Below, piece by piece: positions 44,178 to 49,322 of a stretch of 64,000 bases of DNA. The stretch is from assembly GCA_001724855.1 (NCBI GenBank), contig MEED01000032.1:1-64000 (forward strand), given 5' to 3'. A program made the position numbers and the translations under genes. The notes below the pieces were generated by a model. The model was not told the DNA's origin. It saw only the letters and a program-made list of their open reading frames with translations, and searched no databases. This DNA comes from Lautropia sp. SCN 69-89. GTDB taxonomy: Bacteria > Pseudomonadota > Gammaproteobacteria > Burkholderiales > Burkholderiaceae_E. Positions within the stretch are counted from its first letter, which is position 1. Each line of letters starts with the position of its first letter.

Positions 44178-44252
44178 CAGGCGCCGGCGTGCCCTGTCAG
44201 GCGCCGGCGTGCCCTGTCAGGCGCCGGCGTGCCCTGTCAGGCGCCGGCGTGC
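44178..44252. repeat. 20-bp tandem repeat (TCAGGCGCCGGCGTGCCCTG), about 3.7 copies
   Basis: direct reading; last copy overlaps 3' end of the adjacent CDS. Confidence 0.9.
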
Positions 44253-44905
44253 TCGCCCAGGCTCGCGCGCTCGTCGCGCATCGTGCGCCACGCCGCCCAG
44301 GCGAGCCAGGCCACAGCCACCGCACCCGCCAGCCCGACCAGCGCCTGGCCGACGAACGCCTGCTCGTCGAGCCGATAGCTGTTGCACAGGCGCGCGGAGG
44401 CCTCCTGGTAGAGGACCCCGGCGACGGCCATCATCGGCAGCACGTTGCCGAGAAAAAAGCCCTGCACCACCAGCCCCGCGGGCCGCCACGACAGCCGCAG
44501 CGCGGCGCCGCACAGCAGCAGCGCAAGCCACTTGGCCGCGTCGATGCGCGGGTCGGCCAGCGCCAGGTCGAGCAGCCGCGGAATCATCGACAACGCGAGC
44601 ACTCCCGCGGCCGCCACCAGGCCGGCGATGCCCAGCGCGTTCCAGCGGGCGATGCGGCTGCGCAGCCAGTCGGGGCACGCTGCCGCAAGGAGCGCACCCG
44701 CCGTGACCAGCAACGGGAACTGCGCCAGCATGTGCGTGGCCATCCCCGCTTCCATCGGCTTGCGCACAACAGGCAGCGCGAGCAGCGCGATGGCCGCGGC
44801 ACCGGCCAGCGCCTGCAGCCGAGGCGAGCACGCCGCAGCCATCCAGCCCGCACCGGCACGGCGCCGCCCGGCTCCACGCTGCGTCGCGGCGACCGGCTTA
44901 TCCAT
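44237..44905 (-). CDS. Multi-TM protein in the oxidase operon (assembly-factor-like)
   Basis: multi-TM; overlaps the sco1-like gene start. Confidence 0.55.
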   Translation of the reverse strand: MDKPVAATQRGAGRRRAGAGWMAAACSPRLQALAGAAAIALLALPVVRKPMEAGMATHMLAQFPLLVTAGALLAAACPDWLRSRIARWNALGIAGLVAAAGVLALSMIPRLLDLALADPRIDAAKWLALLLCGAALRLSWRPAGLVVQGFFLGNVLPMMAVAGVLYQEASARLCNSYRLDEQAFVGQALVGLAGAVAVAWLAWAAWRTMRDERASLGEHAGA

Positions 44906-45551
44906 GCGTATCCGCCGCCGCAATGGCGCGAGCGAAGCCGAGCGCCTCGTCGATGCGGTCGTAGTCGAAGATCCTGACCAGCCGCCCGCGCGGATCGACC
45001 ACCAGCAGCGCCGCATTGTGTTCGTAGCCGCCCAGCCCGTCGGGGATCACGACCACGCGGAACTGCCGCAGCAGCGGCGCCAGTTCGCGCCCATCGGCCA
45101 CCGTGGCGAAACGCCAAGTGTCGCCGCGCGCCTTCATCGTGGCCGCGTAGCGCGTGAGCGTCGGCAGGTCGTCGCGCGCGGGATCGAAGCTGATCGAGAG
45201 CAGCCGCACCTGCCCGCGCGCTTCGTCGCCGCCGCGCGCGCTCTCTGCACGGACGCGTTCCTGCAACTGCTGGAACGCGGTGCCCAGCGCGGCGCAGGCC
45301 GACCGGCAGTCGGTGTAGATGAAATCGACGATGGTGGCGGCGCCGTCGGCGGCCAGCAGTTCGGGCAACGCGCGCGGGCCGAGCCCCGGCACGAGCATCG
45401 CGACCGCAGGAGCCGGCACCGGCTCGCGCGCGACCTCGTGGCGCCGCGCGCCTTCTTCGGTGAAGGTGCGGAAGCCGTGCGTCAGCCACGCCCCCGACGA
45501 GACGACGAGCAGCGCGATGGCGGCGCTCGCCGCGGCCGTGCGCAGCATCAC
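44898..45551 (-). CDS. SCO1/SenC-like copper chaperone
   Basis: FIYTDCRSACAALGTAFQQL; Cys pair and thioredoxin-like fold. Confidence 0.82.
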   Translation of the reverse strand: MMLRTAAASAAIALLVVSSGAWLTHGFRTFTEEGARRHEVAREPVPAPAVAMLVPGLGPRALPELLAADGAATIVDFIYTDCRSACAALGTAFQQLQERVRAESARGGDEARGQVRLLSISFDPARDDLPTLTRYAATMKARGDTWRFATVADGRELAPLLRQFRVVVIPDGLGGYEHNAALLVVDPRGRLVRIFDYDRIDEALGFARAIAAADTHG

Positions 45552-45564
45552 ACGGCCCGCGCGC

Positions 45565-46032
45565 TCAGGCTGCGCGCGCCTTGCCCATGCGGGTCAGCGG
45601 GCGCGCGCGAAGGGTGCCGGCCTCGCTTCCGCTGCCCGGCGGGACGATGTCGGCGAGCGTGTGCGAGTCGAACGCCTTCAGGAAGCCCTGCAGCGCCTCC
45701 TGGACGATGCCGGTGAGCCTGCAGCTGCCGGTGAGCGAGCACTGGTTGCCGGTGCCGAAGCACTCGGTCAGCTGGAAGTCGGACTCCATGCTGCGCACCA
45801 CCGCGCCCAGGTTGATCTTGTCGGGCGGATGCGCGAGCCGCATGCCCCCGCCCTTGCCGCGCACCGTCTCGATCCAGCCGTTGAGCCCCAGCTGGTGCGT
45901 CACCTTCATCAGATGGGCCTCGGAAACGTCGTAGACGCGCGCGACCTCGGCGATGGTGCACAGGCGGTCGGGATGCTGCGCCACGTACATCAGCAGCCGC
46001 ATCGCGTAGTCGGTCATCATGGTCAGGCGCAT
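45565..46032 (-). CDS. nsrR: Rrf2-family regulator, NsrR-like
   Basis: MRLTMMTDYAMRLLMYVAQHPDRLCTIAEVARVYDVSEAHLMKVTHQL; Cys set ECFGTGNQCSLTGSC. Confidence 0.85.
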   Translation of the reverse strand: MRLTMMTDYAMRLLMYVAQHPDRLCTIAEVARVYDVSEAHLMKVTHQLGLNGWIETVRGKGGGMRLAHPPDKINLGAVVRSMESDFQLTECFGTGNQCSLTGSCRLTGIVQEALQGFLKAFDSHTLADIVPPGSGSEAGTLRARPLTRMGKARAA

Positions 46033-46059
46033 CTGGATTCTCCTGTCGCGTGGTGCCAG

Positions 46060-46665
46060 CTAGCGCGACTGCGAAGCCAGCGCCTTCAGCTCGGCGCCAC
46101 CCGCGAAGGGCGTGCTGCGCGCGCCGGCCCTGCGCTCGCGCTCGAACGACGCCGCATCGATCGCCGGCGCCTTGTTCGACCACTGGCTGCGAACCCAGCT
46201 CGCGATTGCCGCCAGTTCCGCGTCGGCCAGCTTGTCGAACGCGGGCATCGCACCGTTGTACTTCGCACCCGCCACCTCGATCTCGCCGGTGACACCGTGC
46301 AACAGGATATTCGAAACGACGCGTTCGTCGCCATTCACCCATTCCGATCCGTCGAGCGGCGGAAAGACGCCGGGCAACCCTTTGCCGGTCGGCTGGTGGC
46401 AGGCCGCGCAGTGCGCGGCGTAGAGCGCCTTGCCGTCGGCACCCTTCGTCGACACCGCGGGCGCGCCGGCCAGGTCGGCGACCGTGCGCCGGTCGCCCAG
46501 TTCGGGGCTGCCGAAAGACTCGGACAGCAGGAGGTACACCACGCCGAACAGCACCATCGCCAGGGTCACCGCTACAGCCGCCAACGGTATCGGACGAATG
46601 TATTCCGACGGCTCGGCATTCTCGCGCTGCTGGGCGCCGGTGGAGGCGCCCGGATCGTTCAGCAT
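46060..46665 (-). CDS. Membrane-anchored monoheme cytochrome c
   Basis: YAAHCAACHQPTGKGLPGVFPPL; single N-terminal TM. Confidence 0.87.
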   Translation of the reverse strand: MLNDPGASTGAQQRENAEPSEYIRPIPLAAVAVTLAMVLFGVVYLLLSESFGSPELGDRRTVADLAGAPAVSTKGADGKALYAAHCAACHQPTGKGLPGVFPPLDGSEWVNGDERVVSNILLHGVTGEIEVAGAKYNGAMPAFDKLADAELAAIASWVRSQWSNKAPAIDAASFERERRAGARSTPFAGGAELKALASQSR

Positions 46666-46708
46666 CTGCTTCCTCCGGATGCGCGCCGCGGGGGCACGGG
46701 CTGCCGGC

Positions 46709-47302
46709 TCATCGCGCCGCGGCTGCCGCGGGCAGCGCCGGGTAGGTCCGGTCGAGCGACTGCAGGTACCGGACCAGGTCGAGGGCTTCACGGGTGGCCA
46801 CCGTGACCTTGCCCGGCTCGCCGTAGCCCGGCGGCAGGTTCACCACGTGGTCGCCCTCTTCGGCCGCGTCCTTGTGCACGAACAGGTACCGGTAGGCGGG
46901 CATGTTCGATCCCTGCACGTAGGCGCGCGGCTGGTAGAGGTGGCCGAGATGCCAGTCCTGGCTCGGCTGGCGCGCCCCGATGTTCAGCAGGTCGGGGCCG
47001 GTGCGCATGGTGCCGAGCAGGTGCGGGTTGTCGTAGTAGTAGTCGGAGGGCACCGATGCGCGGCCCCAGCCGCGCTCGAAATCGGGCCCGAAATTGCGGT
47101 CGCGCGGCTGCTGGCTATGGCAGTAGACGCAGCCGTTGGCGATGTACAGCTGCCGGCCGCGCAACTGCTGCTCGGTATACGGCTTCAGCCCCTTGGCGGG
47201 CTCGAGGTCGCGCACCTGCAGGTACGGCAGCACCACGAGCGCCGCGGTGGCGATGCCGAGCGATGCGAGCGCGCCCCCGCCCAGCTTGAGTTCATTTTCC
47301 AT
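46709..47302 (-). CDS. cbb3 oxidase subunit II (CcoO)-like cytochrome c
   Basis: GRQLYIANGCVYCHSQQPRDRNFGPDFERGWGRASVPSDYYYDNPHLLGTMRTGPDL. Confidence 0.9.
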   Translation of the reverse strand: MENELKLGGGALASLGIATAALVVLPYLQVRDLEPAKGLKPYTEQQLRGRQLYIANGCVYCHSQQPRDRNFGPDFERGWGRASVPSDYYYDNPHLLGTMRTGPDLLNIGARQPSQDWHLGHLYQPRAYVQGSNMPAYRYLFVHKDAAEEGDHVVNLPPGYGEPGKVTVATREALDLVRYLQSLDRTYPALPAAAAAR

Positions 47303-48944
47303 GCGCGATCGCCCCGTCGGACGCATTCCAGAACAGCGCAGCTCCCGCGCGATGCGGCCCGAAGCGCAGCGCCATCGCGAAGAAGTGGCCGACGAACACC
47401 AGGTGGCCGAGCGTGAGCATCGCGCCGCCGATGCTGCGCCATTCGAGATACGGCATCGTGACCGCCACCGAGTCGATGAAGGGACGCGAGCCATCGAGCA
47501 TCGCGAGCCCCTGCAGCCAGCCTCCGACCGACAGCGGGATCACGTAGACGAGGCTGCCGATCACGGCCAGCCAGAAATGCGCGGTGATCAGCCGCGGGTA
47601 CGGCCACTCCCAGGCGAGCACGCGCGGCAGCATGAAGTAGACCGCGCCGAACATCACCATCGTGACGAACGAGTAGGCGCCGAGGTGCGCGTGCGCGACG
47701 GTGAAATGCGTGAAGTGCGCGACCTGGTTGACGCTGCGCAGGGCCTCGATCGAGCCCTCGACCGAGGACGCGAAGTACATCAGGCCGCCGAACATCATGA
47801 AGCGCAGCGTCGGCGAGTAGATCGCCAGGCCCATCCGCCCCCAGAGCGTTCCGCCCTGGTTGATGCTGAACGCGACCACCGGGATCACCATCATCACGCT
47901 CTGGACGATCGACAGCGTGGTGAGCCAGCCGGGCACCGGCCCGCCGATCAGGTGGTGGCCGCCGACCTGCGGATAGAAGAAGGCGAGCGTCCAGAACCCG
48001 AGCAGCGACAGGTTGTACGAGACGACCGGCCTGCCGAGCACCTTGGGCAGGAAGTAGTAGATCGCGCCCACGCTCACCGGCGTGAACCACAGGCCCAGCA
48101 CGTTGTGGCCGAACCACCAGTTGGTGGTCGCCTGCTGCACGCCCACGTGCACGCCGGGCAGGTTGGCCACCAGGAACAGCACCGCGACCCACAGCAGCGA
48201 CGCGACGAAGTACCAGACGCTGACGTACAGATGCTCGACCTTGCGGTTGGCCAGCGTATAGAGCGCAGGCAGGATGACCAGCGCGAAGCCGCCGAAAATG
48301 AAGACGTCGATCTGCCACGGAATCTCGAGGAACTCCATGCCGTCCGACCAGCCCGAGGCGATCGCGCCGATGCCGGCGGCCACGCCGGCGTTGAGGAAGG
48401 TGCCGCCGAGCATCGCCCAGCCGGCTCCGGCCAGCCGCGTGCGCAGCAGGCGTGGCAGCAACCACAGGATGACCGCGATACAGGCGTTCGAGACCCAGCC
48501 GTAGAACACGGCGTTCGTGTGCACCGCACGCAGGCGGCCGAAGGTGAGCCAGGCGTCGTCGGTGAGCCAGTCGGGCGCATGCAGCTTGATCGACGCGGTC
48601 AGCCCGGCGGCCGACCCGACGAGCAGCCACAGACAGGCGAAGGCCACGAACATGAAGACCGGGAACGCGCTCGAGCGGTCGGACTCGATGCGGTCGCGTA
48701 CCTCGCCGACGTCTGCGCCCCGGGGCGCGCCCAGCTGCGCGGTGGACGCGTCCTGCATCGCGTGGCGCGCCTCGTCGGTGAGCGCCGGGTCATCGACCTG
48801 GCCGATCTCTCCGCGCGCGAAGATGACACCGGCGCCTGCCGGGTTCTCGACCAGCAGCCCCTTGCGCAGCGACCATATGAACGCGAACAGCCCGAGGATC
48901 GACAGCAGGAAGGCCCCGAGCAGGCTCAGGATCGCGCTGTCCAT
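47292..48944 (-). CDS. cbb3-type oxidase subunit I (CcoN)-like with N-terminal CcoS-like segment
   Basis: N-term MDSAILSLLGAFLLSILGLFAFIWSLRKGLLVENP..GVIFARGEIGQVDD resembles CcoS; then CcoN-like core with RAVHTNAV, WWFGHNVLG, FFYPQVGGHHL, SSVEGSI, VAHAHLGA. Confidence 0.88.
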   Translation of the reverse strand: MDSAILSLLGAFLLSILGLFAFIWSLRKGLLVENPAGAGVIFARGEIGQVDDPALTDEARHAMQDASTAQLGAPRGADVGEVRDRIESDRSSAFPVFMFVAFACLWLLVGSAAGLTASIKLHAPDWLTDDAWLTFGRLRAVHTNAVFYGWVSNACIAVILWLLPRLLRTRLAGAGWAMLGGTFLNAGVAAGIGAIASGWSDGMEFLEIPWQIDVFIFGGFALVILPALYTLANRKVEHLYVSVWYFVASLLWVAVLFLVANLPGVHVGVQQATTNWWFGHNVLGLWFTPVSVGAIYYFLPKVLGRPVVSYNLSLLGFWTLAFFYPQVGGHHLIGGPVPGWLTTLSIVQSVMMVIPVVAFSINQGGTLWGRMGLAIYSPTLRFMMFGGLMYFASSVEGSIEALRSVNQVAHFTHFTVAHAHLGAYSFVTMVMFGAVYFMLPRVLAWEWPYPRLITAHFWLAVIGSLVYVIPLSVGGWLQGLAMLDGSRPFIDSVAVTMPYLEWRSIGGAMLTLGHLVFVGHFFAMALRFGPHRAGAALFWNASDGAIAHGK

Positions 48945-48977: not shown

Positions 48978-49322
48978 TCAGGACTCATCGTTTTCTCCCC
49001 TCTTGTCGAGCAGTTCTTTCTTGTCTTCGACCTTCGCCCATTCGTCGGCGTCGGGCAGCGAGGCCTTGGTCTTCGTGATCGTCGGCCACTTCTTCGCCAG
49101 GGTCGCGTTCAGCCCGATGTAATCGAGCTGCGACTGCGGCACGTCTTCCTCGGTGGTGATCGCGTTGACCGGGCACTCGGGGATGCAGACCCCGCAGTCG
49201 ATGCACTCGTCCGGATCGATGACGAGCATGTTCTTGCCCTCGCGGAACGCGTCGACCGGACACACGTCGACGCAATCCGTGTATTTGCACTTGATGCAGG
49301 CTTCGCCGACGACGTGGGTCAT
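48978..49322 (-). CDS. fdxA: FdxA-like 7Fe ferredoxin
   Basis: [55 protein letters not shown]. Confidence 0.93.

Follow-up and report, generated by a model that had tools for sequence, protein, structure and literature searches.

We analysed a 64,000-nucleotide stretch of contig MEED01000032.1 from Lautropia sp. SCN 69-89 (positions 1 to 64,000; hereafter, the window) and propose that an operon at 44237-48944 encodes a self-contained cbb3-type, C-family O2 reductase for use at low O2 when nitric oxide (NO) is present, a reading to which we assign a probability of roughly 70%. In the catalytic subunit of this predicted enzyme, CcoS, ordinarily the product of a separate gene, appears to be fused to the N-terminus of a CcoN-like core. 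An earlier reading made from the letters of this DNA (the sequence-only reading) had described the operon, and the coordinates, reading frames and motifs that it quoted are all present in the sequence. The operon comprises the following features:

47292..48944, minus strand: subunit I, fused CcoS-CcoN-like heme-copper enzyme, 550 amino acids (Pfam COX1, 271.9 bits, residues 96-509)
48786..48944, minus strand: CcoS-like N-terminal domain of subunit I, residues 1-53, one transmembrane (TM) helix plus tail (FixS PF03597, 14.6 bits, E 0.13)
48675..48785, minus strand: variable linker of subunit I, residues 54-90 (length differs, frame retained)
47295..48674, minus strand: CcoN-like catalytic core of subunit I, residues 91-550 (ligands mapped through the 3MK7 alignment)
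46709..47299, minus strand: CcoO-like monoheme cytochrome c, 196 amino acids (FixO PF02433, 118 bits)
46060..46665, minus strand: membrane-anchored monoheme cytochrome c, CcoP-like, 201 amino acids (PF00034/PF13442)
45565..46032, minus strand: Rrf2-family regulator, NsrR/RirA-like, with a Cys x6 Cys x5 Cys motif (PF02082, 118 bits)
44898..45551, minus strand: Sco (SenC) copper-chaperone-like protein with CxxxC (PF02630 SCO1-SenC, 38.4 bits)
44237..44905, minus strand: multi-TM (5-TM) protein, homologue of Orf1 of norSY-senC-orf1 (5-TM profile)

The CcoS-CcoN fusion noticed in the sequence-only reading appears to be real. Given that the FixS/CcoS score of the window is weak (the cut-off of PF03597 is 23.1 bits), and that scans of the window protein with Pfam and NCBIfam models did not detect CcoS, the identification rests on relatives. 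In whole-genome scans over these relatives, fused N-termini scored 27.3, 24.1, 20.0, 19.1, 15.6, 15.6, 14.6 (the window) and 13.6 bits, the first two, from genomes G356 and G158, exceeding the cut-off, whereas the canonical ccoS of the same genomes reached 48-86 bits; the next-best matches after canonical ccoS include the N-terminus of the fused gene or a separate open reading frame (ORF). Such separate CcoS-like ORFs, found in unfused relatives, score 28.2 (G370), 25.3 (G025), 22.4 and 20.9 bits. The unfused sister clade (L047, L048, L185 and L186) lacks the N-terminal extension, and in the upstream DNA of L047, L048 and L186 a small ORF encoding a TM segment plus tail overlaps or abuts the gene start. 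The segment is retained in frame in 91/91 fused relatives, with L8, F12, A38 and I41 invariant, and comparison of the window with six relatives gives ratios of nonsynonymous to synonymous substitution rates (dN/dS) of 0.00-0.13 in residues 1-53 and 0.06-0.25 in the core, with 0.16-0.78 in the linker, suggesting that both domains are under selection, with a loose linker between them. It is barely credible that the fusion is an annotation artefact, with translation beginning past the CcoS-like segment and the enzyme being an ordinary CcoN: although the segment of the window scores below the FixS cut-off and the ATG at 48944 lacks a strong ribosome-binding site, purifying selection on the in-frame segment is as strong as on the core, the separate ORF of the unfused sisters is CcoS-like, and the phylogeny places the enzyme outside ordinary CcoN. 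In the open-access literature searched, judged on titles and abstract openings, we found no description of such a fusion.

With TIGR00780, the ccoN equivalog model, subunit I reaches 258 bits, short of the cut-off of 583. A survey covering 80 genomes of the phylum put canonical CcoN proteins at 592 bits or more; scores near 240-258 were confined to the window and one iron-oxidiser-type group. In a tree of 62 rows rooted on NO reductase (NOR) sequences, the fused rows are monophyletic (support 99/96) and the unfused clade is their sister (98/98 for both together). Ordinary CcoN (100/100) stands apart, as does the iron-oxidiser type (L136 and L218, the latter probably from Zetaproteobacteria), and the NOR rows split off with support of 100/100; the tree does not fix the order of the deep C-family branches. 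Thus, the fused clade does not lie inside ordinary CcoN. The AlphaFold model of subunit I (mean predicted local distance difference test score, pLDDT, 82; predicted template modelling score 0.87), in which the N-terminal helix has low confidence, finds its best fold match in cbb3 CcoN (E 5e-23; template modelling score 0.87-0.89 of the target), and the match to cNOR is far weaker (E 3e-12).

Two other kinds of C-family subunit I were noticed. The first is a lone, long-branched subunit I (L049:5318-6727), 39% identical to that of the window and accompanied by CcoO and cytochrome c genes, for which neither the CcoS-like part nor the Sco/5-TM pair was found. The second is the iron-oxidiser type, a deep clade (L136, L141 and L218-L224) comprising probable Zetaproteobacteria and order members such as G042, which keeps the Tyr discussed below and has Gln at E323 and Gly at Ser240 of the K-channel. 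This clade probably corresponds to the published ‘distal’ cbb3 subtree (Ducluzeau 2008), a term that PMC7029218, PMC8788666 and PMC10734462 use for Zetaproteobacteria and Gallionellaceae. Like the fused clade, ‘distal’ cbb3 is a non-canonical C-family lineage, reportedly with a different subunit composition, and the iron-oxidiser-type sequences share with the fused clade the Gln at E323; they differ in forming a clade of their own, in lacking the CcoS fusion and in the Gly at S240.

The predicted assignment to O2 reductases draws on the active site, which we mapped onto the window by alignment with the Pseudomonas stutzeri enzyme (3MK7); the residues, in window numbering, are:

H142/H420, minus strand: heme b ligands
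H418, minus strand: heme b3 ligand
H280/H330/H331, minus strand: CuB ligands
Y324, minus strand: cross-link Tyr position, six residues ahead of the HH pair (Tyr251 of P. stutzeri)
Y296/Y297/S313, minus strand: K-channel (Y223/Y224/S240 of P. stutzeri)

The six His ligands (H60, H207, H257, H258 and both His of AHAH; P. stutzeri numbering here and below) are invariant in 91/91 fused sequences, so that the retention of heme and CuB ligands noted in the window extends to the whole clade. The same applies to the Tyr at the cross-link position (90/91) and to the K-channel, with Y223 and Y224 unchanged throughout and Ser at the S240 position in 90/91. Replacement of the His of SIVHFW by Gly is likewise general, the H243 position being Gly in all fused sequences. 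The Glu of SSVEGS fared differently: it is present in the window and is no clade feature, because the E323 position is Gln in 82/91 sequences and Glu in only 9 (the window and 8 relatives), as against Glu in 68/68 canonical sequences, and we dropped it as a catalytic clue. A single fused sequence, L069 from a metagenome-assembled genome (MAG) of Polaromonas sp. KJH.2, has Ser at the cross-link Tyr, together with Ala for the K-channel Ser, and may represent a degenerate copy or an artefact of sequencing.

Across the superfamily, oxygen reductases keep the Tyr, which is replaced by Glu in cNOR and qNOR, Asn in sNOR, Gln in eNOR and Asp in gNOR (PMC8756737). By this rule, retention of the Tyr in the fused clade points to an oxygen reductase with a single proton channel, and the Tyr-based prediction of O2 reduction made in the sequence-only reading gains support from the conserved Tyr, ligands and K-channel residues. 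Membership in a NOR sequence class is ruled out on the Tyr, the K-channel and the phylogeny. With cNOR and qNOR, the enzyme shares the superfamily fold, and cNOR genes neighbour the fused cassette in four loci; NORs, however, have Glu for Tyr, FeB for CuB and no K-channel residues, and the window, with WWFGHN and the Tyr, does not match the cNOR/qNOR signature, an assignment made on sequence.

The enzyme appears to be a streamlined, three-subunit member of the C family, as had been suggested, judging from the core gene order, the one-heme subunits and the phylogeny. Pfam confirms the CcoO-like cytochrome, the start of whose gene overlaps the end of the subunit I gene, and the anchored monoheme cytochrome c, which scores 46.7 bits with the ccoP model TIGR00782, under its cut-off. 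A single CxxCH motif is found in CcoO of 84/84 loci and in the third subunit of 81/82, which means that a diheme CcoP is absent, and the gaps in the operon are too small for CcoQ. Compared to canonical cbb3 (CcoNOQP, P. stutzeri 3MK7), the enzyme shares the fold, the heme b/b3 and CuB ligands, the helix-VII Tyr, the K-channel and a CcoO-like subunit. It differs in being only ~33% identical and under the TIGR00780 cut-off, in the fused CcoS, in the one-heme third subunit that replaces diheme CcoP and the absence of CcoQ, in the substitutions at E323 (mostly Gln), H243 (Gly) and HHLHY (HHLIG), and in having its own Sco and 5-TM genes within the cassette.

Orthologues with the N-terminal extension occur in 9/200 genomes of the order, counting that of the window, and 80 named contigs carry fused orthologues (61-97% identity), most of them from Comamonadaceae and Oxalobacteraceae, with Nitrosomonas eutropha also represented. 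Conservation of the core genes spans Burkholderiales and N. eutropha: the order subunit I, CcoO, cytochrome c, Sco, 5-TM recurs in nearly all loci on these contigs that are long enough, which is more than chance would produce. In two N. eutropha-type genomes (G063 and G107), the cassette is present and canonical ccoN, ccoS and ccoG were not found, leaving the fused gene as the sole C-family gene detected there. A ‘cbb3-type (C type)’ oxidase has been reported in N. eutropha (PMC6967387) and is very probably the same enzyme (67-68% identity), which makes the system less novel than the sequence-only reading implied; the literature searched yielded no account of this oxidase that mentions the fusion or the accessory pair.

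The accessory genes were partly as described earlier, in that Sco (SCO1-SenC) and the multi-TM protein are confirmed, and these two, rather than the regulator, belong to the core cassette. Their conservation downstream of the cytochrome genes implies a copper site. The 5-TM protein matches no Pfam family above cut-off, and its structural model (pLDDT 90) has no fold match in the PDB; Caa3_CtaG was considered and rejected, the Pfam matches being weak (5/37 members, best E 0.029) and a PDB fold match lacking. A profile built for the 5-TM protein and run on 150 genomes of the order matched only in fused cassettes and directly behind Sco in sNOR-type clusters, with one exception, a short terminal match on one contig (L294). 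The sNOR-type clusters (L296, L297, L298, L299 and L300 carry Sco + 5-TM) encode a B-type subunit I in which, where readable, FGHVxIN replaces the Tyr motif. An arrangement of Sco followed by a multi-TM gene behind sNOR has been named norSY-senC-orf1 (PMC4940428), and we conclude from gene order and homology that the pair in the cassette is this senC-orf1 pair, in unchanged order, apparently serving two classes of heme-copper enzymes. The catalytic subunits differ, that of sNOR being B-type with Asn for Tyr and that of the window C-family with the Tyr kept. We found no description of this sharing in the open-access literature searched. At two fused loci outside the order (L183 and L184), no Sco or 5-TM gene was seen, so the pair is probably a later addition. 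In L297, an Rrf2/NsrR-like gene lies in the opposite orientation, which suggests NO control there too. The genome of the window also encodes an sNOR-like B-type subunit I (L006, C6:4588-5898) with FGHTIIN, that is, Asn for Tyr; this genome yielded no further copy of the 5-TM gene.

The surroundings of the cassette support the proposed link to NO. At least one NO-related gene, from a set consisting of Rrf2/NsrR-like regulators, globin (PF01152), NnrS (PF05940) and NorB, lies within 5 kb in 30/76 fused loci, compared to 0/39 control C-family loci of the same order (Fisher p = 6e-7, an optimistic value, given that the loci are related; 15/29 clusters remain positive after collapsing at 85% identity). 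The probes were taken from fused loci, which favours these somewhat; two of the 39 controls (L136 and L141) turned out to be of the iron-oxidiser type; and NorB matches inside subunit I, being homology noise, were left out. In L078, L088, L095 and L105, genes read as norE and norF (the latter uncalled in L088) are directly upstream and co-oriented, with norC and norB divergent; three of these loci also have a called norQ. The regulator, named NsrR and included in the operon by the sequence-only reading, did not hold up as a fixed operon member: it is optional (23/76 fused loci), and its subfamily is uncertain, with near-equal scores of 125 bits for RirA and 121 bits for NsrR (NsrR cut-off 182), both under cut-off. 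Three Cys are present. The gene directly upstream of subunit I encodes a ferredoxin:

48978..49322, minus strand: FdxA, 7Fe ferredoxin, directly upstream of subunit I (NF045490, 159 bits)

FdxA is upstream of the cassette in only ~9/80 loci and is probably not a core part; in two Oxalobacteraceae loci (L127 and L133), its gene stands between those for CcoO and cytochrome c instead of upstream of subunit I, and these differing positions indicate that FdxA recurs with the cassette.

These surroundings raise the question of whether the enzyme is mainly an electrogenic NO reductase, that is, a CuB-containing C-family enzyme that converts NO to N2O in vivo and has metallation genes in common with sNOR. 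The Sco and 5-TM pair, the NsrR-like, globin, NnrS and norEFCBQ neighbours, the change of E323 to Gln and the remodelled loop behind the HH pair are all in line with this possibility, as is the NO reductase activity of the ordinary cbb3 of P. stutzeri (Forte 2001, as cited in PMC6967387). We nevertheless consider it unlikely, given the Tyr (90/91), which is lost in every recognised NOR class, and the retained K-channel residues. The genome of the window, moreover, encodes nirS, cNorB and qNor, so that a separate NO reductase already exists in this host, and several carriers (G836, G837, G842, G843, G224 and G356) have no nirS or nirK match by the models used, which argues against a purely denitrification role. 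Quite improbable, in our estimate, is that an enzyme retaining Tyr, CuB and the K-channel is a physiological, proton-coupled NO reductase or a dual O2/NO reductase, with metallation of the sNOR type by Sco and Orf1; if true, proton-coupled NO reduction with the Tyr kept would run counter to the rule that NO reductases are recognised by loss of this residue. A detoxification or O2-scavenging device, conserving little energy and shielding iron-sulphur (Fe-S) enzymes rather than forming a respiratory branch, could account for the Rrf2 (possibly RirA-like), FdxA and globin neighbours and for the replacement of E323 in most relatives, but is very unlikely for an enzyme that receives electrons through a full set of c hemes, conserves the K-channel residues and is the sole C-family enzyme found in the N. 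eutropha-type genomes.

We therefore favour a low-O2 reductase operating in the presence of NO, while recognising several points that weigh against it. Catalytic activity as an O2 reductase is a prediction; the prevalence of Gln at E323 and the Gly at H243 mean that proton coupling may differ; and one MAG sequence, L069, has Ser at the Tyr position. The copper module is common to sNOR, a predicted NO reductase, and norE, norF and cNOR genes adjoin the cassette in the four loci named above. Finally, most loci have no Rrf2 gene nearby, and either NO or iron may be the ligand of this regulator.

Under the favoured reading, the bc1/cytochrome c pool would feed electrons to the two c hemes, from which they would reach heme b and then the heme b3-CuB site. 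Cofactor insertion would be aided in cis by the fused CcoS domain, and CuB would be delivered by Sco and the 5-TM protein. O2 bound at b3-CuB would receive the fourth electron and a proton from the conserved Tyr, with protons entering by the K-channel and energy being conserved. The Rrf2 regulator, where present, probably ties expression to NO or Fe-S stress, so that the O2 sink of the host might be kept running while denitrification intermediates are present. When NO is encountered at low O2, the enzyme would either tolerate it or also turn it over, and the same site could plausibly convert some NO.

If this reading is correct, the operon represents a cbb3-type oxidase pared down to a portable cassette, in which CcoS, a helper in heme-site assembly, forms part of the catalytic polypeptide and the copper pair is common to another heme-copper class. 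Together with the Sco/5-TM pair, the fused CcoS domain may substitute for the usual ccoGHIS assembly genes, and the N. eutropha-type genomes lacking canonical ccoN, ccoS and ccoG offer a natural test of minimal C-family oxidase assembly. The Tyr rule separating O2 from NO reductases becomes directly testable, since one set of accessory genes accompanies two enzymes for which the predictions are opposite. Annotation pipelines may label the fused gene plain ccoN, which may lead to wrong assignments of O2 and NO capacities in Betaproteobacteria that denitrify or nitrify.

One minor feature lies at the 3′ end of the operon, where ~3 tandem copies of a 20-base unit, acgccggcgcctgacagggc, occupy 44180-44240 and overlap the end of the 5-TM gene.

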